Positions 30-10,334 of a DNA stretch of 21,609 nt are shown piece by piece (position 1 is the first letter of the stretch; every line of letters starts with the position of its first letter). The stretch comes from a virus: IMG/VR virus record IMGVR_UViG_3300020465_000108, positions 1 through 21,609 of that record, one strand, 5' to 3'. The translations under genes and the position numbers were made by a program. The notes under the pieces were generated by a model that worked only from the letters and a program-made list of their open reading frames with translations, did no database searches and had not been told where the DNA came from.

Positions 30-944
30 TCACATAGTTATAGTATTAGGTGGTCCTGAAAAAGCAGGATCAGTAAATGTTTGATTTTCATAACTCACTT
101 TATCAGGATTGTAATTTGGATCAGGATAATCTTTCCAAGTATCACCCTCATACTCAGTAATTAATGGATTAATATCTTTCCTCTCTGCATATACATGATA
201 GAAGCAATCAATTGGCATACCACCCATAGTTTGAAGATATATCTTTTCATCATCCCATCTCTTTATAATTATATCTTGATGCGATCCAATAGGTTGGAGT
301 TGAACAGTGATACTATTGATATGAACTAAATCCTTCCAATAGTTTGGTAGTAATATTTCCTTTCCTCTCCTCAATCTACCTCTATGATAAACTCCTACCT
401 CTGCTCCCTCAATACAAGCATATCTTAATCTCCATCCTTCTTTAGATGGGTGTTTTATATCAAAAGGTTTTGGTCTACCGTCAGCAGAACTAAATCTAGA
501 TGACATAGTTTGCCCACTAGTTCCTGCCTTGAACATTGCCTCACCTGAGTCATCTATCCAAACAGTTCCCTTATTAATATCAATTGCCTTTCCTGCTTCA
601 CTTGTAATTTTAAGAGTATGAGGTTTTCCTTTATCACCTTTAATCTCAACATTACCCATAGTTTGTAATGCTAATTTAATTGCAGGAGTAAAGCAATCTT
701 TATCATCATTATAACATCTAGTCACCATTAAATTAGCTGGTGCTGCACCTGTAATATTATCTGGATCATCAGGATCTCCTCCAACAGCACCAAGTTTAAT
801 CTTAGTACCCTCACCAATAACTACTGGTCCTTCCAAAGAAGCAGACCCATTAATTTTATAATCACCCTCCTTGATAGGAGGGCAAATACCTGTTCCCACT
901 CTTAATTGCCCACCAACTACTAGATCATCAAAATTCCAAGACAT
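30..944 (-). CDS. Virion structural / fibre-like protein with C-terminal conserved beta domain
   Basis: This 304-aa protein is probably a tail- or baseplate-attached fibre or spike component. The N-terminal half (about residues 5-140) is rich in short beta-strand patterns with many Gly and Asp residues (GGQLRVGTGICPP, GNVEIKGDKG). Residues about 158-258 form a distinct domain: FDIKHPSKEGWRLRYACIEG, then VYHRGRLRRG, NYWKDLVH, ITVQLQPIGSHQ and CFYHVYAERKD. I recognise this pattern from the ends of fibre-like structural proteins in T4-like marine phages; its exact function is not known to me. The start at 944 is well supported by an upstream GGGAGGAAT Shine-Dalgarno. It is the last complete gene of the minus-strand cluster and follows the 207-aa gene with a 12-bp gap. 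The stop is TGA. No terminator is visible in the remaining 29 bases. Structural role is inferred from context and composition. Confidence 0.6.
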   Translation of the reverse strand: MSWNFDDLVVGGQLRVGTGICPPIKEGDYKINGSASLEGPVVIGEGTKIKLGAVGGDPDDPDNITGAAPANLMVTRCYNDDKDCFTPAIKLALQTMGNVEIKGDKGKPHTLKITSEAGKAIDINKGTVWIDDSGEAMFKAGTSGQTMSSRFSSADGRPKPFDIKHPSKEGWRLRYACIEGAEVGVYHRGRLRRGKEILLPNYWKDLVHINSITVQLQPIGSHQDIIIKRWDDEKIYLQTMGGMPIDCFYHVYAERKDINPLITEYEGDTWKDYPDPNYNPDKVSYENQTFTDPAFSGPPNTITM

Positions 945-1585: not shown

Positions 1586-4500
1586 TTAAGTAAGATTGTC
1601 AGGAGTTCCAGGAATATTAAGTCGAGAATTGTTGCTGTTAACATCAGTACCCTGTCTCTGAATTGCAGATGGTGGAGTGGTGACTTGTGCATCAATACTC
1701 TCCTGTAAGGTAGCATAGATTTGAACCTTTTGTCCAGGTGTATCATAATATCCTGCATAAGAAACACCATTCTCATAGAAAATAGCACCATAGTAAGGTT
1801 TACCCTCATAATATCCAGTTTGTTTCAAACCAGGAAGATCAGTAACCTGAATCAATCTCTTTGGATCAACTCCAATAGGATCAAGAACTGCTTTCATTCT
1901 TGGTATTCCCTTGTAACCAATACCTGTACCTCTTCCTCTTACTATTATTTGAGGATACTCCCTATATCCATTGGGAGGTTTTTGTTTACCATCCTCTGGT
2001 GGTGCATCTAACAAAGGATCATCAGGATCTTTAACAACCGTCACTGTTGTGGTTGCAGTATTAGAACCACCCCCATCATCACCACCGTCACCAGTAATTT
2101 TATAAGTTGTGGTTACAGGAGGACAAACCTTCACAGTTCCTCTTGGAGTAACAGGAACCTCACCAACTCCATTATCAATTACTAATTTTGTATTTCCTGC
2201 AGATGTATAAACAAGCTCCGTACATTTTCCTTCAGGTATTACTGGAGGAGTGGCAGTAATTGTTACTGTTGGTGTTGGTGGTCCTGGTGGATCTCTATCA
2301 TCAGGAGGATCAGGTGGTCCTCCAGGAACTGGTGGGGTAATACGAGGATCAAATGGAAATATCTCTCCAAATGGACCTTTAGGAGGAATATAACATACTT
2401 CTTCACCAGTTTCAGTATTTACAATACATACCTTATCATCTGGTCCATAATTGATACCAGGATTTTCAGGATCAATTGTATCCACTTCTATAATAACTGA
2501 TGGTCCTGAAGGATCACCATCATCATCTGGTTTTTCGGGTGGATCAAATCCATTTCCAGGATCATCAATAATAACAGCAGTAACAATACCAACACCATCT
2601 ATTTTTTTAGGGCAAGGTGGTGGAATAAGAATTGCAGAAACACCAAGAGGATTAACTGTCCAAGGTTTACCCAATGCTGTTCCCGATCTTGGATCTACTT
2701 TTGCTACTTGTACTTTTCTTGTAATTTTCACAGCAGCGACAGCAGGATTCTGTGAAAATGGAGCATTAAAATCCAAATTCATTAAAGTTAATTCTATCGT
2801 TCTCTTTCCTTTAGGTGCATTAAATTGTGTTTTTGTTATACCATTACCAACTTCAGAAGTAGCAATTTCAACACCATCAAGTTTAACAGTTAACTTATCA
2901 TCTGCTTCTGCCTGTATATCATAAGTTCCTTTCTCAGGAAAATCAACATTACTAAATGTCATTGTCCATGTCTTACCATTAAAATTAGCAATATACTCTT
3001 CATCAGTATTCCAAGTAGGAGTAAGGAATGGTCCTAATGTTCCACTTATATAAGTCGATAATGGAGGTCCAGAATAAATAACACCACTCTTTGATGATCC
3101 ACTAGTAAGACCTTTACCATATTCTATAGTTGTTTTATCTTTAGAAGGAATTCTATATTTACACCTTCTTCCCTGTATATTATAGAATTCCCCATCAGTA
3201 GCAGAACATACAAGATCTTTAAAGAATATATTCGGATCATTAGTACCACCAGTACCTGCAAAAAAATTACCAGGTATATCTTCCATTTCAATTACATTCT
3301 TACCTTTGTTTCTTAGTGCTATTGCTGAATTATTATTATTACTCTGCACCGTATCTCCAGTTGTAATAGATGGTCCTAAATCAATAGTACGAGTTCGATC
3401 TTCCAGTTTAACCCTATTGCTGCTAAAAGTCGATCTGGCATCCCATACCATCTTTCCTACCTTAATAGTTTTAATAGCATTTCCTAGATTTATACCATCT
3501 TCATCATCATCTCCTCTAGCTTGATTCCACCATAATTCTATAGTTACCCTTCCTGTTCCTACTATAGTAGGACCACTTGCAGTCTCTTCAAATCTTGCAT
3601 TACCACTAGTAATTCTAAATGATGCATCCATTTCCCAATCGAATCCAGCATTATCAAAATCATATGTTAACCCTCCTGCACCTACTCTTCTATTACCAGG
3701 ATTTTTACCTTCACCATCTATAATAACTGCTTTTCTATTCTGAGATATATTACCAGGAATAACTCTTTGATTATCACTTCTAAATTCTACATCATAAACC
3801 TTACCAACTTCTATATTTTTAGTATGAGTTTCAGGAACATGATACTCCTTATATGGTTTATAAGAATCAAACAAAACATCATTAGTACCAGCATCAAATA
3901 ATTTTATTCCATTACCATAAAGAGAAGCGATACTTACTTTAAAATCAACGTCTATATTCTTAGCACCTTCAATCGTAGTAGAAGTATTATTTTGCTTAGA
4001 TGCCCAATCTGCAGTACTAAAAACTTTTTGGTCTATTGTATTCCAAATAAATTGTTTTTCATTTTCAACCTCAACAGTTATATCAACCGTTTTCTTTTCC
4101 AAAAGTATTTTCTTAGTTTTTGGAGCTTGTGTCTGCGACGTATCAAATTTAGAATCAACATTAGGTCCAAGAACCTCTACACCATCAATAAAAAGTTTTC
4201 CAAAATTATCTACAGTTCCTTTAACACCATAAAAACCCCTATAAGGAAGTTCTACTTTCCAACTATTTCTATACACCGCACCAGCACCATCAGTTCCTTT
4301 TAATCCTAAAGGAGGAAGAGGTGATATTGAATACCTATTCATAAATTTACCCCAAGAATTCACATTAACTGGATACCATATTTCATTAACAGCATTAGTA
4401 GATCTAGTAGTCCAAATCGGATTATTGGGACATCTACCTTCTTGTTGTTGAGGAGGTTCTTTAGGAATTGGAGCAAAAGGAGCATCAATACTTAATGCAA

Positions 4501-7500
4501 CTCCCATTGGATTTTCATTCCAAGATTTAGAAGAAATTACTTCTATTTCATCACTAACAAATGCAGCTTTTATATCAACAGCAAGTCCCATTACATTACC
4601 TTCTGCTATTGTCCCACCTGGAATTTGTTCAAGAACTGCATTTAATGTATAAGTTCCTGATTCAAAATATTTTATAAAAACAGACTTACCTGTAGGACTA
4701 AACCTCCCTTTATTAACTGCTTGAATTGCAGATCCAAAATTACTATAAGTAGTTGGATTATTCCCAAAAGAAAATCCTTCTTTAGTAATAACAATATCTT
4801 TTTTATTAGGTCTAGTAAATTTAAGTTCTACATTATCATCAACCATTACTGCAACTGAATAATTTCCAGATTCAGGGAAGGTAATATTATTCCAAATAAT
4901 TTCATGGAATCCTGCATAATCATCAGTAGATATAACAGTCTCATATCCAGAAGACCCTAATTGCCCTACTCCTTCTTCAAAGTCCCAATTCTGTTCATTA
5001 AACTTTATAATATTTTTAAGTTCAGGAGTATCAATTGGAGTAATACTCTTAACCTTTACATTAGCATATCCACGTCCATCAAATCCATATTTAACAGCAT
5101 CATCAAATTGTAATACTGTTTTATCTACACCAATCTTTGATCCAGATGTTTGACTTCCACCTAAAGATTTTATCAAATATTTTTTACCAGAGGTAAACAT
5201 ACCAGTTCCATTAAGTTTCTCAAAACGTGTTCCAGTCCTCTTTAATATAATTTGTCCCTCATCTGAAAATATTTTAACCTCTCTTACAGCAGCTCCAAAT
5301 CTATTTCCCACTTCATCATCCACATCCATTTCAAATCCAACTTTAACTCTTCCTTTACCAATAACTTTTAGATAAGTTTTTCCATCATCACCAACCTCAA
5401 ACTTTACACTAGGAGGGACCACTGGTACTTTTTTTTCTATCTTTACAACTTCTGTAGGATCAAAAGGAAGAACCCCAAATCGACTAATAAAATTAGAATC
5501 CTTACCAGCACCACTATTCATTTTCCATAATTTTCTATTTGCCTTCTTTATCCAATCAACAGTATTGAATATATGTGCTCTTTCTCCTTTTAGAGTAGAA
5601 CCTCCTTTATTATCTACAGGAGCATCTAGTGTAAAATTACAAGAACTACCATTTATACCATAAAGTCTTCCATTATTTACAGAAATAATAATATCATCCC
5701 AATATACACCTACACCACCTCCACCTGCAAAGGTTCCTGGAATATCTTCCACTTCAATAACCTTTTCACCTTTATTTCTCAATCTAATATTAGAAGTATT
5801 ATTTCCACCAGCAGTTGTATTACCACCGTCAAGAGTAATTGTTTTTGATTCTCCACCTTTATGTTTCCTTTCCTTCACCCACTTTGTCTTACCAATCGCA
5901 ATTGAACGCACAGCTTCACCAGAATACCTTGGATTATCATCATACCAAAGATTTAAACCAACCTTTCCTTTACCTATTATACGTCTACCATCATCAGAAA
6001 ACTTAGCATCTCCACTAGTAATAGTAAACTTAACATTCGCATCATTTCCTCTACCATCTTTTAATTCAATACATGTATTATTTTTTGCAACTCTAATTGT
6101 TTTATTTGATGGATTTAAATCTTCATATCGAATTACCGTACCATCACCATTTCCTCCTTCTACAACTCTTTGATTACTACTTTTAAATTTTACAGGATAA
6201 ACTCTTCCATACTCAACTTTTTTAGTAATTGTTTCCCTTATGTCTTTACCATTACCATATTCCTTACCTATATTAATACCCAAATCTGGAATTTCAAAAC
6301 CATTAGCATAAAGAGAAGCTGTGGTAACAGTAAAAGTAACCTCATCAGAAGTTGCAACCACATCTTTCTGAATCTTCTTCATCTCCATAATCTGATGGTT
6401 CAAAAGATCTAATCGAATCTTACGCATTCCTGCGCTTACAAATTTTTTAATTTTTGTAGGAGGGGATAGTATATGTCCTGCTGCACCACCACTTCCTAAC
6501 AAAATCTTATCACCTACTGAATCATTATCAATATATAAATGCGATTCATTATCTGCTTGAATATTAAATACATACTCACCTTCATAAGGAAATTCTTCTT
6601 CCCATTCAAAAGTATAATTTATTCCTGCCTTATCAGAACCAGCCACATTTGATGGAGCTACAGGAGATATTGCATATTGATTCATAAAAGAATCTTGAAT
6701 AGCAGTGTTCTTATTCTTATTATCTTTAATACCTTTGGAATACTTTGAATTCTTCTCTGCATTAAAAGCAGTAGAATCCTTCAACTCATAAGTTATATTA
6801 CCCTTATTAATAAAAAATGTTCCTTGCTTACATTGTACCTGCAAATCATCATCATCAGGAGCAGTTTTACCAATATCAGAAAAAATAGCATTGCTTGTAC
6901 CAGTACGTTGAGCGATATCTCCTCCCGTACCAAAAACTCCATTCTTTAAAAGTCCCTTATCTCTTATCCCCTTTCTACTAGTTGTTGTTACATTATATTT
7001 TGTATTTCTTTTAACTTTGATTTTTATTTCTTCTGCTGATGCATTATTCTTATAATCATCAGCTCTTATTTCAAAACTATGATTTCCAGAAGTTGATTTA
7101 AATATAAATTTTAAGTCTCTTCTCTGTCCACCTGATGTATAAACAAGAAAAGAAGATTCTATAAGACTAGTACCAACCCCAAATGTTGATGAAGTTTTAT
7201 TAGAATTATTATTGGAAGATTTTGATACTAACCCACCCCATGCTGGATGTTGAACATCAAATTTTTCTCTTGTTACCTTATCTGCAGATATGACTCTAAG
7301 AGGAGCTTTTTGTCTTGTTGTCCACCAACCCTTAATTTTATTACCCTCAATACTTGCCCCATCTCCTAAATTTAATAGGTATTTTTGATATCTTTGAATT
7401 TCATAAGCAATAGGATCTATACTTTTATTAAAATAAACTGAAGGATCCCATTTACCCAAATTTTTACCATCTGGACTCCATCTTTGACCATATCCAATAT

Positions 7501-8161
7501 TTTCCATTTCTGGAACACATTTATCTAGTACATATTCCTCATAATCATCCTCTGCATCAAATTCCTCAATTAAAACCCCTTCATCTGATGTGCGTGTTTT
7601 AATAATAGATCTAGCAACAACACCACCACCCTTTCCAGTATCATCAGTTATATCAACAATAGGAGCATACTTATATCCATAACCTCCATGAATAACTTGA
7701 ACAGCTAATATAGACCCATCATTACCTATTATAGGAGCAGCTTGAACCCCTACTCCACCACCACCATAAAAATTAACTGCTGTTTTATCTTTTTCTGGTA
7801 CAGCTTTTGAATCTTTGGTGCTTCCTCCAGTGTAAGCACGATCAGCATCTAAAGTTACATCAATACTTTTACTAGTGTCACCTTCTAAATTTAATCCAAC
7901 AATTCCAGAACATGATTTAGCACCTGAACGTTTCTCAGGAAGCATCATATTAGGAGTTAATGCATTAACTTCATTAATGTTTAAATATTTTACAAAATCC
8001 CTATTTCTAAAAATAAATTGAGTTCCTGGATTAAGCTTAGCAATATGATTAGCTTCATAGACACCAAGACCATCTACAAAACCCCTTTCGGAAGAAATAT
8101 AACCAACTGTAATATTACACTTAGTATTTGGACCTGACAATGAAAACCTTTTTTCTTCCAT
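1586..8161 (-). CDS. Giant modular virion structural protein (VrlC-like position)
   Basis: This 2191-aa protein is probably a large tail or baseplate appendage. Residues about 135-180 hold a Gly-rich segment (GGGGVGVQAAPI, HGGYGYKYAPIVDITDD) seen in cyanophage structural proteins. Four PA14/GLEYA-like beta modules can be picked out near residues 520 (FPYEGEYVFNIQADN), 1090 (FPESGNYSVAVMVDDN), 1310 (LPYRGFYGVKGTVDN) and 1735 (FPEKGTYDIQAEADD). Two Ig/Big-like stretches (residues about 610-830 and 1405-1640) share ASLYxNG, SxNQRV, ITSGxAxF and NKGxxVIExEDIPG. Residues about 1910-1960 are a Pro/Asp/Gly-rich linker. Residues about 1960-2045 resemble an Ig-like domain (TVTITATPPVIPEGKC...TTTYKITGDG). 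The start at 8161 has a strong GGAGGT 13 nt upstream. It follows gene 5 by 38 bp. Large genes after gene 5 in cyanomyoviruses are often labelled VrlC; I use that only as a positional comparison. Carbohydrate or receptor binding is plausible from the PA14-like modules but unproven. Confidence 0.65.
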   Translation of the reverse strand: MEEKRFSLSGPNTKCNITVGYISSERGFVDGLGVYEANHIAKLNPGTQFIFRNRDFVKYLNINEVNALTPNMMLPEKRSGAKSCSGIVGLNLEGDTSKSIDVTLDADRAYTGGSTKDSKAVPEKDKTAVNFYGGGGVGVQAAPIIGNDGSILAVQVIHGGYGYKYAPIVDITDDTGKGGGVVARSIIKTRTSDEGVLIEEFDAEDDYEEYVLDKCVPEMENIGYGQRWSPDGKNLGKWDPSVYFNKSIDPIAYEIQRYQKYLLNLGDGASIEGNKIKGWWTTRQKAPLRVISADKVTREKFDVQHPAWGGLVSKSSNNNSNKTSSTFGVGTSLIESSFLVYTSGGQRRDLKFIFKSTSGNHSFEIRADDYKNNASAEEIKIKVKRNTKYNVTTTSRKGIRDKGLLKNGVFGTGGDIAQRTGTSNAIFSDIGKTAPDDDDLQVQCKQGTFFINKGNITYELKDSTAFNAEKNSKYSKGIKDNKNKNTAIQDSFMNQYAISPVAPSNVAGSDKAGINYTFEWEEEFPYEGEYVFNIQADNESHLYIDNDSVGDKILLGSGGAAGHILSPPTKIKKFVSAGMRKIRLDLLNHQIMEMKKIQKDVVATSDEVTFTVTTASLYANGFEIPDLGINIGKEYGNGKDIRETITKKVEYGRVYPVKFKSSNQRVVEGGNGDGTVIRYEDLNPSNKTIRVAKNNTCIELKDGRGNDANVKFTITSGDAKFSDDGRRIIGKGKVGLNLWYDDNPRYSGEAVRSIAIGKTKWVKERKHKGGESKTITLDGGNTTAGGNNTSNIRLRNKGEKVIEVEDIPGTFAGGGGVGVYWDDIIISVNNGRLYGINGSSCNFTLDAPVDNKGGSTLKGERAHIFNTVDWIKKANRKLWKMNSGAGKDSNFISRFGVLPFDPTEVVKIEKKVPVVPPSVKFEVGDDGKTYLKVIGKGRVKVGFEMDVDDEVGNRFGAAVREVKIFSDEGQIILKRTGTRFEKLNGTGMFTSGKKYLIKSLGGSQTSGSKIGVDKTVLQFDDAVKYGFDGRGYANVKVKSITPIDTPELKNIIKFNEQNWDFEEGVGQLGSSGYETVISTDDYAGFHEIIWNNITFPESGNYSVAVMVDDNVELKFTRPNKKDIVITKEGFSFGNNPTTYSNFGSAIQAVNKGRFSPTGKSVFIKYFESGTYTLNAVLEQIPGGTIAEGNVMGLAVDIKAAFVSDEIEVISSKSWNENPMGVALSIDAPFAPIPKEPPQQQEGRCPNNPIWTTRSTNAVNEIWYPVNVNSWGKFMNRYSISPLPPLGLKGTDGAGAVYRNSWKVELPYRGFYGVKGTVDNFGKLFIDGVEVLGPNVDSKFDTSQTQAPKTKKILLEKKTVDITVEVENEKQFIWNTIDQKVFSTADWASKQNNTSTTIEGAKNIDVDFKVSIASLYGNGIKLFDAGTNDVLFDSYKPYKEYHVPETHTKNIEVGKVYDVEFRSDNQRVIPGNISQNRKAVIIDGEGKNPGNRRVGAGGLTYDFDNAGFDWEMDASFRITSGNARFEETASGPTIVGTGRVTIELWWNQARGDDDEDGINLGNAIKTIKVGKMVWDARSTFSSNRVKLEDRTRTIDLGPSITTGDTVQSNNNNSAIALRNKGKNVIEMEDIPGNFFAGTGGTNDPNIFFKDLVCSATDGEFYNIQGRRCKYRIPSKDKTTIEYGKGLTSGSSKSGVIYSGPPLSTYISGTLGPFLTPTWNTDEEYIANFNGKTWTMTFSNVDFPEKGTYDIQAEADDKLTVKLDGVEIATSEVGNGITKTQFNAPKGKRTIELTLMNLDFNAPFSQNPAVAAVKITRKVQVAKVDPRSGTALGKPWTVNPLGVSAILIPPPCPKKIDGVGIVTAVIIDDPGNGFDPPEKPDDDGDPSGPSVIIEVDTIDPENPGINYGPDDKVCIVNTETGEEVCYIPPKGPFGEIFPFDPRITPPVPGGPPDPPDDRDPPGPPTPTVTITATPPVIPEGKCTELVYTSAGNTKLVIDNGVGEVPVTPRGTVKVCPPVTTTYKITGDGGDDGGGSNTATTTVTVVKDPDDPLLDAPPEDGKQKPPNGYREYPQIIVRGRGTGIGYKGIPRMKAVLDPIGVDPKRLIQVTDLPGLKQTGYYEGKPYYGAIFYENGVSYAGYYDTPGQKVQIYATLQESIDAQVTTPPSAIQRQGTDVNSNNSRLNIPGTPDNLT
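2642..4354 (-). repeat. Internal protein duplication, unit 2
   Basis: This covers roughly residues 1270-1840 of the 2191-aa protein. Landmarks in the same order as unit 1 are FMNRYSISP, LPYRGFY, IASLYGNG, SDNQRVI, FRITSGNARF, NKGKNVIEMEDIPG, FPEKGTY and NPLGVS. It is shorter than unit 1, mainly through a shorter stretch between the EDIPG motif and the second PA14-like module. Boundaries are approximate. Confidence 0.75.
4502..6694 (-). repeat. Internal protein duplication, unit 1
   Basis: This covers roughly residues 490-1220 of the 2191-aa protein. The order of landmarks is FMNQYAISP, FPYEGEY, TASLYANG, SSNQRVV, FTITSGDAKF, NKGEKVIEVEDIPG, FPESGNY and NPMGVA. The same ordered landmarks recur in unit 2 (2642-4354), so this is a long tandem protein duplication with strong divergence. 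Boundaries are approximate, taken from motif positions by eye. Confidence 0.75.
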
Positions 8162-8199: not shown

Positions 8200-10065
8200 T
8201 TAAAATAGTTCTTTAATAAGAGGAGCATCTCTCAAATCAACATTAGATGCATTTTTAGGAGGTTCAGCAAAAACTTCAATAGGTTCTTTATCAGGTATTA
8301 CTCTGTTCTTTAATTCTACAACAGCATCCTGAATAGCAGCAGAACTTGGTAATTGTGATTGAGATTGAGATGCTCCACCACCACAAAAAGTGTAGTAATC
8401 AGCAACTGCCTCATTTGGTGGAAGTTCAAAAGGAAAAACATTTTGTTTTATATTTTCAAAATCTAAAGCAGATGTCATATTTCCTCTAATATTTCCTAAT
8501 TTGGAAAGAACACCTGTAATTCCTGCTGCTGAACCCCCTACATTACCCATTTCATTCATCATATCACCTATAAACGTATCAATCCCATTAAGAATATTAC
8601 CATTAGTATCCTCAATTTTTGTTTGATTAGAATGTATTACTGCAGCAATAGCATCCTCAGATGTACAAACAGGAACTCTAGGTTTTGCTTTTTCTTTATC
8701 CCCTTTAGATGAGTCATTAAAAGCACTCTCTAATGCCTGAGTTAACAATCCTTTCTGTTGATTTCCAAAATTATCCTTATAATCATCTAACTTTAACATA
8801 TTATTCAACACACCTTCCATCAAACCACTCATACCTCCTGTCATACCATTAAATTCTGATAAAATATTTTGAGTCATATTATCTTTTAAATCAAGCATTT
8901 GCCATCTTTTACATGCAGGTAATGCAGAAACAGCAGATGTCATTTCTTGATTTATTTTTTTCTGACTATATTCCTTTACTTTATCCATAATCACTTTCAT
9001 ATATTTGGATTGGGTTTTAGAAGAATCCTTAATAACTTTCTTTAAATCTTTAACCCCTTGAGTAATAGAAACAGCATCTGTATAACTTGAAAATGCATTT
9101 ATAGCCTTCTCAATATTAGTTGTCATATTATCCATATCAGTTTTCATTGCTCTATTACAAGAATCGACAATACCAGTAGGTTTCAATAAAACTCTTTTTT
9201 TACAAAAAACTTCATCTAGTTTTATATCAGCAGAACTCTGAACATGAACTGCTTCAGATTCAATAGTTGCTCCTGGATTAACAGGAGATCTAGGAGAATT
9301 TGCTTCTTTCTTCCTAGCTGCCATTCCTGATGCAACTCTTTTTTTAATTAAATTTTCTTGTGCTAGTAAAGAAAAAGCAGGATTGGATTCTAATATTAAA
9401 CTTATTTCTGATCTTGCACTATTAATATCTTTTTGCTGTGATTTTGATATTGGTTTATTGGAAGGTAACCCAAATTGATTCAAACTAACTCCAGGAGTGG
9501 GATCAGCAAGTTCTTTTGCTAACTCAGGATCCTTTGGTTTCTCAACACCTTTATCTTTATCAGGTGGTAAAGGAGCGCTAGTTCCTTCATAATCTACATT
9601 ACCTTCAGCATAACCACTAGTTGCTACAGATCCAGGTTGAGTATTACTAACCCTATTATCACCAATTTTACCTGCCAATAATGTTTGAGAATTATTTCCC
9701 AAAACCCCCATAATTACAGGTTGTTGTTGCTCAGATCCATCTAAGAAGAATCCAAAAACAATATTACCCTGTCGGATCATGGGAGTAGATCCAGAGTTCT
9801 GCTGATATCCACCAGCAGTAATGGGATACATTACATTTGCCCAAGGTAAATTTTCTGATGGGATAGAATCTTCACCCCAATCATGAAGACCAAAAATTCT
9901 TACTTTATATCGATATCCCCATCCACGAACACTTTGTTTATCTTTAAATTTTCCAGCATTAATATTATCTCTCCAATAAGAATCATCGGCAACCTGTCCA
10001 ATCCACCAGACAAAAGATTCCCCCAAATAATCCTGATTAAATAATCCTCCTCCTTCTGCTGCCAT
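8200..10065 (-). CDS. gp5: gp5-like baseplate hub protein without lysozyme domain
   Basis: This is the central baseplate hub/spike protein homologous to T4 gp5 in its N-terminal OB-fold. Supporting segments are YRYKVRIFGLHDWG (51-64), LPWANVMYPITAGG (73-86), GNIVFGFFLDG (100-110) and QPVIMGVLGNN (115-125). T4 gp5 has 575 aa with a lysozyme domain after the OB-fold and a VxGxxxxx beta-helix at the end. I see neither in this 621-aa protein: after a Pro/Lys/Asp linker (about 165-200) the rest is mostly helical and polar (about 210-600), with Cys-containing segments such as LPACKRWQMLDLKDNM. The cell-wall hydrolase must therefore come from elsewhere or be absent. The start codon overlaps the stop of the 89-aa gene by one base (TAATG), so translation is likely coupled. 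It lies downstream of the gp27-like gene, consistent with a gp27-gp5 hub. Confidence 0.82.
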   Translation of the reverse strand: MAAEGGGLFNQDYLGESFVWWIGQVADDSYWRDNINAGKFKDKQSVRGWGYRYKVRIFGLHDWGEDSIPSENLPWANVMYPITAGGYQQNSGSTPMIRQGNIVFGFFLDGSEQQQPVIMGVLGNNSQTLLAGKIGDNRVSNTQPGSVATSGYAEGNVDYEGTSAPLPPDKDKGVEKPKDPELAKELADPTPGVSLNQFGLPSNKPISKSQQKDINSARSEISLILESNPAFSLLAQENLIKKRVASGMAARKKEANSPRSPVNPGATIESEAVHVQSSADIKLDEVFCKKRVLLKPTGIVDSCNRAMKTDMDNMTTNIEKAINAFSSYTDAVSITQGVKDLKKVIKDSSKTQSKYMKVIMDKVKEYSQKKINQEMTSAVSALPACKRWQMLDLKDNMTQNILSEFNGMTGGMSGLMEGVLNNMLKLDDYKDNFGNQQKGLLTQALESAFNDSSKGDKEKAKPRVPVCTSEDAIAAVIHSNQTKIEDTNGNILNGIDTFIGDMMNEMGNVGGSAAGITGVLSKLGNIRGNMTSALDFENIKQNVFPFELPPNEAVADYYTFCGGGASQSQSQLPSSAAIQDAVVELKNRVIPDKEPIEVFAEPPKNASNVDLRDAPLIKELF

Positions 10066-10334
10066 TAGTCGTCGTATACTCTACATTCCAGTGAATCTGG
10101 GTGGTTATCACAATAAACTTCTAAATGCTTGTCCTCGTGCCTAGTATGCCAATCATTGATCTTACCATCATTTGGTTCTACTTCCTCTTCAGTATGATCA
10201 TGAAAGGCATCATTGTGCATTTCTAAATCTGCTTCAGTATATTCAATCATACCATGATTAACATGCTCTTTATGATCTTTAGGATCAAGATAAACCTCAT
10301 GCTCTAGATCGTGTTCTGGAGTGTTAGTTGTCAT
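10065..10334 (-). CDS. Small His-rich acidic protein between the gp27-like gene and gene 5
   Basis: This 89-aa protein belongs to no family I can name. It is very acidic and has 12 His and 2 Cys, including EHDLEHE, DHKEHVNH, FHDHTEEE, WHTRHEDKH and YCDNHPDSLEC. The density of His with Asp/Glu and the C-terminal CxxH...C pattern suggest metal binding, but no known zinc or iron fold is evident. It starts 8 bp after the gp27-like gene with an AGAGGAAT Shine-Dalgarno, and its TAA overlaps the ATG of gene 5 by one base. Being locked between two hub genes suggests a hub-assembly or spike-related role. Other possibilities are a small chaperone or an unrelated passenger. Confidence 0.7.
   Translation of the reverse strand: MTTNTPEHDLEHEVYLDPKDHKEHVNHGMIEYTEADLEMHNDAFHDHTEEEVEPNDGKINDWHTRHEDKHLEVYCDNHPDSLECRVYDD

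Follow-up and report, generated by a model that had tools for sequence, protein, structure and literature searches.

Organisation of the tail block and the giant gene

The window analysed here is the complete IMG/VR record IMGVR_UViG_3300020465_000108, 21,609 bases long, and its gene content is that of a T4-like tail block. One strand carries a gp48-like tube cap and a gp53-like wedge, while the other encodes the tail tube, hub, a tail protein, a gp5-like hub protein, a giant protein of 2191 amino acids (aa) and two small genes. The closest named relatives are the Kyanoviridae cyanophages S-SM2 and Bellamy, together with the single-cell-derived marine virus AG-345-E15, and the host is likely a picocyanobacterium. 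The comparisons below suggest, with a probability that we put at about 0.6, that gp5 is here encoded by two genes: a short protein with the OB domain and a second chain, the giant, which bears gp5-like terminal modules (N and C) around a duplicated array of four PA14 modules and would form an arm at the hub/spike. The two genes, the small gene that follows them and the modules of the giant are:

8200..10065 (-), short gp5, 621 aa, baseplate hub with a Gp5_OB domain, lacking both the N and the C module
1586..8161 (-), giant virion-type protein, 2191 aa, matching PHROG 32965 'virion structural protein' at 1492.8 bits
957..1580 (-), 207-aa gene, next in order behind the giant here and behind the one-chain gp5 of other cyanophages
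7232..8146 (-), N module, residues 6-310, of which profile residues ~112-180 match one-chain gp5
6782..7165 (-), beta-rich linker domain, residues ~333-460, modelled with confidence; several relatives lack it or have a shorter form
6359..6700 (-), A1, PA14-type module, residues 488-601, D-N at the dyad position
5615..6343 (-), M1, middle module, residues 607-849
5015..5416 (-), M', an extra half-M, residues 916-1049, in unit 1 only
4442..4930 (-), B1, PA14-type module, residues 1078-1240, D-D dyad
3989..4366 (-), A2, PA14-type module, residues 1266-1391, D-N at the dyad position
3137..3964 (-), M2, middle module, residues ~1400-1675, fast-changing among relatives
2558..3091 (-), B2, PA14-type module, residues 1691-1868, D-D dyad
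2024..2284 (-), Ig-like domain, residues ~1960-2046, also in L007 and missing from the other rows of an eight-row alignment
1589..1978 (-), C module, residues 2062-2191, common to the C-terminal part of one-chain gp5

The order of modules in the giant is N, linker, A1, M1, M', B1, A2, M2, B2, linker and C. All four PA14 modules are found in 46 of 48 complete open reading frames (ORFs) from relatives; 45 of these 46 also have N and C with the order kept, and M' is present in 35 of the 46. Complete giants range from 1424 to 2407 aa, with a median of 1854 (45 ORFs). The two exceptions to the four-PA14 plan are L081, where a 506-aa ORF (2864-4381) holds N and the start of A1 before a stop, and SynMITS9220M01 (L005), which encodes a 405-aa protein consisting of N and C with neither PA14 nor M. 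L025 is the one member of the 46 without N and C in a single ORF: its giant lies in two ORFs (6676-7164 and 2130-6728), the second with the C module, a break that may reflect a frameshift or an assembly error.

Tandem duplication of the PA14 array

A first, sequence-only reading of this DNA had described an old tandem duplication within the giant, marked by eight landmarks that occur twice in the same order. Smith-Waterman alignment of residues 481-1260 with residues 1261-1960 confirms the duplication, pairing residues 492-845 with 1273-1671 in one long, ordered match rather than short, out-of-order hits (133 of 348 columns identical, 38%). The score of 458 compares with a mean of 49 (standard deviation 7.7) and a maximum of 87 over 500 shuffles of the second half. 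The landmark offsets are as described, at 781 residues for FMN and PYxGxY, 797 for ASLYxNG, 801 for SxNQRV, 803 for ITSGxAxF, 822 for VIExEDIPG, 646 for FPExGxY and 620 for NPxGV. The drop from about 820 to 640 had been read as a shortening of unit 2 in its second half; the drop is real, but it arises because the extra module M' lengthens unit 1, in which M1 and B1 are spaced by 228 residues, compared with 15 between M2 and B2.

When relatives are added, profile comparison relates A1 to A2 (E 1.5e-29), M1 to M2 (1.5e-54) and B1 to B2 (5.8e-18), and connects all four PA14 modules with one another (A1-B1 6.9e-9, A1-B2 1.4e-14, A2-B2 2.3e-9, B1-A2 4.5e-6). The M' profile matches part of M1 (1.2e-6) and M2 (8.3e-6), and the other module pairs in this comparison gave E values of 0.02 or above. 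The duplicated block is therefore PA14-A, M and PA14-B, present twice at residues ~488-1240 and 1266-1868, which extends slightly past positions 2642-6694, where the repeat had originally been placed.

PA14 modules and the dyad position

Pfam PF07691 (PA14) matches the window protein over three stretches, scoring 38.1 bits where the cut-off is 24 (E 1.6e-9), in agreement with the two PA14-type modules per unit proposed from the sequence. Fragments from relatives were collected by an anchor motif (11 loci without it were skipped) and reduced at 85% redundancy to 48 of 60 and 37 of 45; fragment set A2 comprises 46 relatives and the window, with L044 and L074 left out, and fragment set A3 comprises 33 relatives and the window, with L025, L044, L066 and L074 left out. 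PA14 matches occur in 34 of 34 second-half fragments and 35 of 47 first-part fragments. The GLEYA likeness also proposed for these modules is weak: a profile search up to E 10 found nothing in the window protein, and two of 34 second-half fragments of relatives gave matches (best E 0.0014). The Ig/Big-like reading of the middle module gained no support from Pfam: M of the window protein has no Pfam match, and an Ig-like match falls instead near the C-terminus, outside the repeated unit.

A profile match to the PA14 domain of 6qdi (E 1.2e-6) and Foldseek matches to the RTX adhesin lectins MpPA14 (6x8a, 5.8e-4) and MhPA14 (6m8m, 8.9e-4) support the PA14 assignment; the window protein by itself had no match among PDB sequences up to E 10, and structure searches with the whole models gave few specific matches. 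The modelled B2 part resembles the phage Chi tail-tip chain 8vjh_B with a modest score (Z 8.6, 109 residues aligned, root-mean-square deviation 2.5). In PA14 lectins, according to PMC8092209, a D-D pair holds the calcium through which sugar diols are bound (DcisD chemistry). Counted by pattern at the dyad position alone, D-D is present in 55 of 55 B1 and 48 of 55 B2 modules, and D-N in 52 of 55 A1 and 41 of 55 A2 modules. By this count the B modules share the D-D dyad with MpPA14 and MhPA14; in contrast to those adhesins, four PA14 copies lie here inside a phage baseplate-region protein, and the comparison of the sugar site covers the dyad. PHROG 773 'major head protein', which matched the PA14 part, was taken as a label problem; 'major head protein' and 'head and packaging' (PHROG 773, PHROG 32965) look wrong as labels for PA14 proteins of a tail block.

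Relationship of the giant to gp5

The one-chain gp5 proteins of cyanophages P-TIM68, S-H68, B23, S-SCSM1 and S-SCSM2R are 766-919 aa long, and profiles of the two ends of the giant match them (N, E 2.7e-13; C, E 6e-15), with the A1, B1, B2 and M1 profiles all above 0.1. In single-sequence searches the N module is found in all five (best-domain E 5e-12 to 3e-9) and the C module is clear in two (S-SCSM1 2e-16, P-TIM68 2.5e-8). An independent profile, positions 1863-2021 of PHROG 32965, also matches gp5 of P-TIM68 (4e-15), S-SCSM1 (3e-25) and S-H68 (5e-14). Like T4 gp5, these one-chain proteins have the OB-domain hub and the same neighbours as the window, and in the cyanophages the C-terminal modules are of the N and C types seen in the giant. 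The window differs from them in having two genes, and in the giant a PA14/M array of ~1300-1400 residues separates N from C; relative to T4 and one-chain gp5, there is no lysozyme domain match here (Pfam at 0.01).

Gene order is consistent with this relationship. In all 74 loci that extend over 1200 nucleotides (nt) upstream of the giant, the gene immediately before it is gp5, with gaps of -3 to 121 nt, and the 207-aa gene lies downstream in 48 of 48 loci with more than 700 nt. In P-TIM68, B23, S-H68, S-SCSM1 and S-SCSM2R, a 207-aa relative or positional equivalent directly follows the one-chain gp5. The 405-aa protein of SynMITS9220M01 (SynMITS9220M01_016) occupies the same slot after gp5 and represents a bare two-gene form; its residues 74-162 align with 469-566 of P-TIM68 gp5, and 171-303 with 705-848. 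It matches 56 records of the phage collection: itself, 7 giants, 23 proteins annotated as hub or central spike, 3 labelled 'hypothetical' or 'predicted', two without annotation, two from P-RSM1 and 18 baseplate wedge proteins, these last matching query residues 93-177 only, a glycine-rich stretch.

A gp5 tree was built from 29 chosen of 76 loci with a gp5 match, the window and five one-chain gp5 cut to 440 residues. In this unrooted tree, the 30 split rows and the five one-chain rows are separated by one change (support 99), with SynMITS9220M01 near the base on a long branch. T4 gp5 is one chain, and a split is therefore favoured over a fusion.

Stable PA14 modules and exchanged M modules

Trees of the A, B and M modules were drawn from 50 of the 55 proteins that entered the within-protein copy comparison (a set of 55 from which eight incomplete or odd proteins had been excluded by name), and two short B rows were lost. 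The A and B trees (100 and 98 rows) each show one change of position label with support 100. The retention of the four PA14 modules in nearly all complete relatives and this split by position agree with the earlier view of an old duplication of which both halves are maintained. In the M tree (100 rows) there are nine label changes and copies mix between positions; the tree of long M modules, from 25 of the 55 proteins, has seven label changes on 50 rows, of which starred branches require at least six, and a tree constrained to keep M2 together was rejected (approximately unbiased test, p-AU 1e-195, quick tree). Exchange or homogenisation between the units has thus affected M and not the PA14 modules, and the earlier view, in which the entire unit is a single old duplication, stands for the PA14 modules but not for M.

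Within proteins, identity between the two A copies is 30-45% in every one of the 55 and between the B copies mostly 27-39%, while M ranges from 28% to 80%. The highest M values, in L037 (80% of 109), L003 (73% of 244) and L020 (71% of 230), are accompanied by likeness at the DNA level (75-81%); the M copies of the window are 41% identical over 240 and are not among the homogenised cases. Between near relatives the M modules, among the most variable parts, often differ where their neighbours stay alike, with M2 25% identical in L061/L076 where the other named modules are at 83-100%, M2 at 58% and M' at 60% in L011/L013 where N, A and B are at 94-99%, and M2 at 28% in L055/L064. The drop is visible in DNA, with identity recovering on both flanks. 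Several of these contigs are metagenome assemblies, so that single cases could be chimeric, but the pattern recurs in several pairs.

Independent pairs were compared among 49 of the 55 proteins, giving 17 pairs in which the lowest module was M2 in eight, A1 in five and M1 in four. Identity of M2 is below that of A2 in 14 of 17 pairs, B2 in 14 of 17 and B1 in 17 of 17. A view of M2 as the sole variable cassette was not upheld: variation is seen in M1 and A1 as well, and M2 has the lower identity of the two M modules in 10 of 17 pairs, not a significant difference (p 0.63). Outside the giants, M is absent from the ORFs of the loci examined, and tblastn of the window M2 in the phage collection found giants only (three records). 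As a separate observation, the DNA of L021 and L040 is identical over the first ~480 codons of the giant and then mostly ~82-95% identical, lower in M2; this boundary is a recombination edge inside the giant gene.

Proposed role of the giant and alternative explanations

Sequence comparison establishes that the block is duplicated, that it holds four PA14 modules, that N and C are homologous to parts of one-chain gp5, that gene order is syntenic and that M has been exchanged. Since the N and C flanks are gp5-derived, an arm at the hub/spike is likelier than the long fibre suggested by the sequence-only reading, and the giant is probably a glycan-binding arm there rather than a separate fibre, its position in the virion and its sugar binding being deduced. 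In the scheme we favour, gp5 would have been split, with the PA14 array placed inside its C-terminal half and built by a single A-M-B duplication. The short gp5 and the giant would assemble together at the hub/spike, from which the array may project as arms near the tail tip or needle. A sugar-binding role for such an arm is plausible. With D-D in B and D-N in A, the B modules are expected to touch host surface glycans, via calcium, and the A modules to be mainly structural or altered. The M inserts might change to follow host surfaces and so tune recognition, and before injection the arm would contribute adhesion or recognition in the surroundings of the needle.

Several observations weigh against this reading or parts of it. 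Against the duplication, BLASTP of the giant with itself returned the trivial full-length match only, and the local alignment ends before PA14-B, leaving the likeness of B1 and B2 at profile level only. By single sequence the C module is weak in two of the five one-chain gp5 (9e-4 and 4.5e-3) and is not found in S-SCSM2R (0.26). The N-module match spans ~68 columns of glycine-rich sequence, which wedge proteins and others have as well, and the case for fission therefore leans mainly on the C module and gene order. Split rather than fusion is the presumed direction and depends on the root of the tree. Long upstream gp5 genes occur despite a separate giant in L003 (778-3693, 972 aa), L080 (166-3132, 989 aa) and L074 (6263-8971, 903 aa); these have gained or kept other parts, and Pfam searches of the L003 and L074 proteins did not identify the extra part. 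The dyad frequencies are pattern counts. The two structure models have modest scores (predicted local distance difference test 67.9 and 66.0, predicted template modelling score 0.29 and 0.30) and are chains of beta domains with no defined arrangement; in Foldseek, model A had no match reaching 0.001 and the top-ranked matches of model B were unrelated multidomain proteins.

A further-reaching version, that the spike has become a means of reading the host, its distal gp5 half being a lectin array with M cassettes traded between units and phages, so that recognition changes at the needle and not on fibres, is tentative, and we would bet against it at present. Of two rivals to the favoured scheme, the likelier, itself improbable, is a separate fibre or decoration protein on the baseplate or tail, possibly a long bivalent fibre, with its gp5-like ends borrowed as attachment tags. 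The size of the giant, its modular beta architecture and its many PA14 modules would fit this, the glycine-rich stretch of N type occurs in several virion proteins, and cyanophages have other PA14 virion proteins; however, the end modules are in gp5 order and adjoin a gp5 that lacks them in the same genome, and the two-gene form of SynMITS9220M01 has no PA14. The other rival, less likely still, makes the array a scaffold or spacer at the tip, or a spike protector, with no sugar binding, PA14 conservation being structural and M variation drift, which would suit the D-N of the A modules and a sugar site argued from the dyad position, but sits poorly with the D-D retained in the B modules and with an M that is sharply different in close relatives with similar flanks, as in L061/L076.

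Returning to the favoured two-gene gp5, PA14 is already annotated in the gene family of the giant. S-SM2_017 'PA14 domain-containing protein' (1424 aa, without M') and Bellamy gp17 (PHROG 32965; 1993 aa) share its family, gene order and N-A-M-B-A-M-B-C plan, and a PA14 gene of Synechococcus myoviruses is mentioned in PMC3037559. Searches of open-licence papers showed no report of a split gp5 with a PA14 array, of the giant as its distal part, of the array duplication or of M exchange. VrlC was considered as the identity of the giant and set aside; the pelagimyophage literature places its gene in the structural region, and PMC7029224 describes VrlC as replacing gp7, and no link to the giant gene was found. 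For abundant marine T4-like phages, tail fibres are the usual place to look for host recognition. Should gp5 itself bear a variable lectin arm, the hub would hold determinants of host range as well, and unexplained giant 'virion structural proteins' would gain a place and a job. Fixed PA14 and exchanged M modules within one gene offer a clear instance of module-level recombination inside a single repeat.

Neighbouring genes

The product of the 207-aa gene may be a beta-helix needle, on the basis of labels in other records and a reading of its repeats; a PDB search with it gave a chance-level match only (E 0.49). Between the tail protein and gp5 lies an 89-aa ORF (window 10065-10334, minus strand) in a slot annotated as CP12 in S-SM2, S-SCSM1 and S-SCSM2R. 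The 207-aa gene is followed by a gene for a 304-aa protein (window 30-944, minus strand), listed in PHROGs as of unknown function, and many loci carry two tandem relatives of it.

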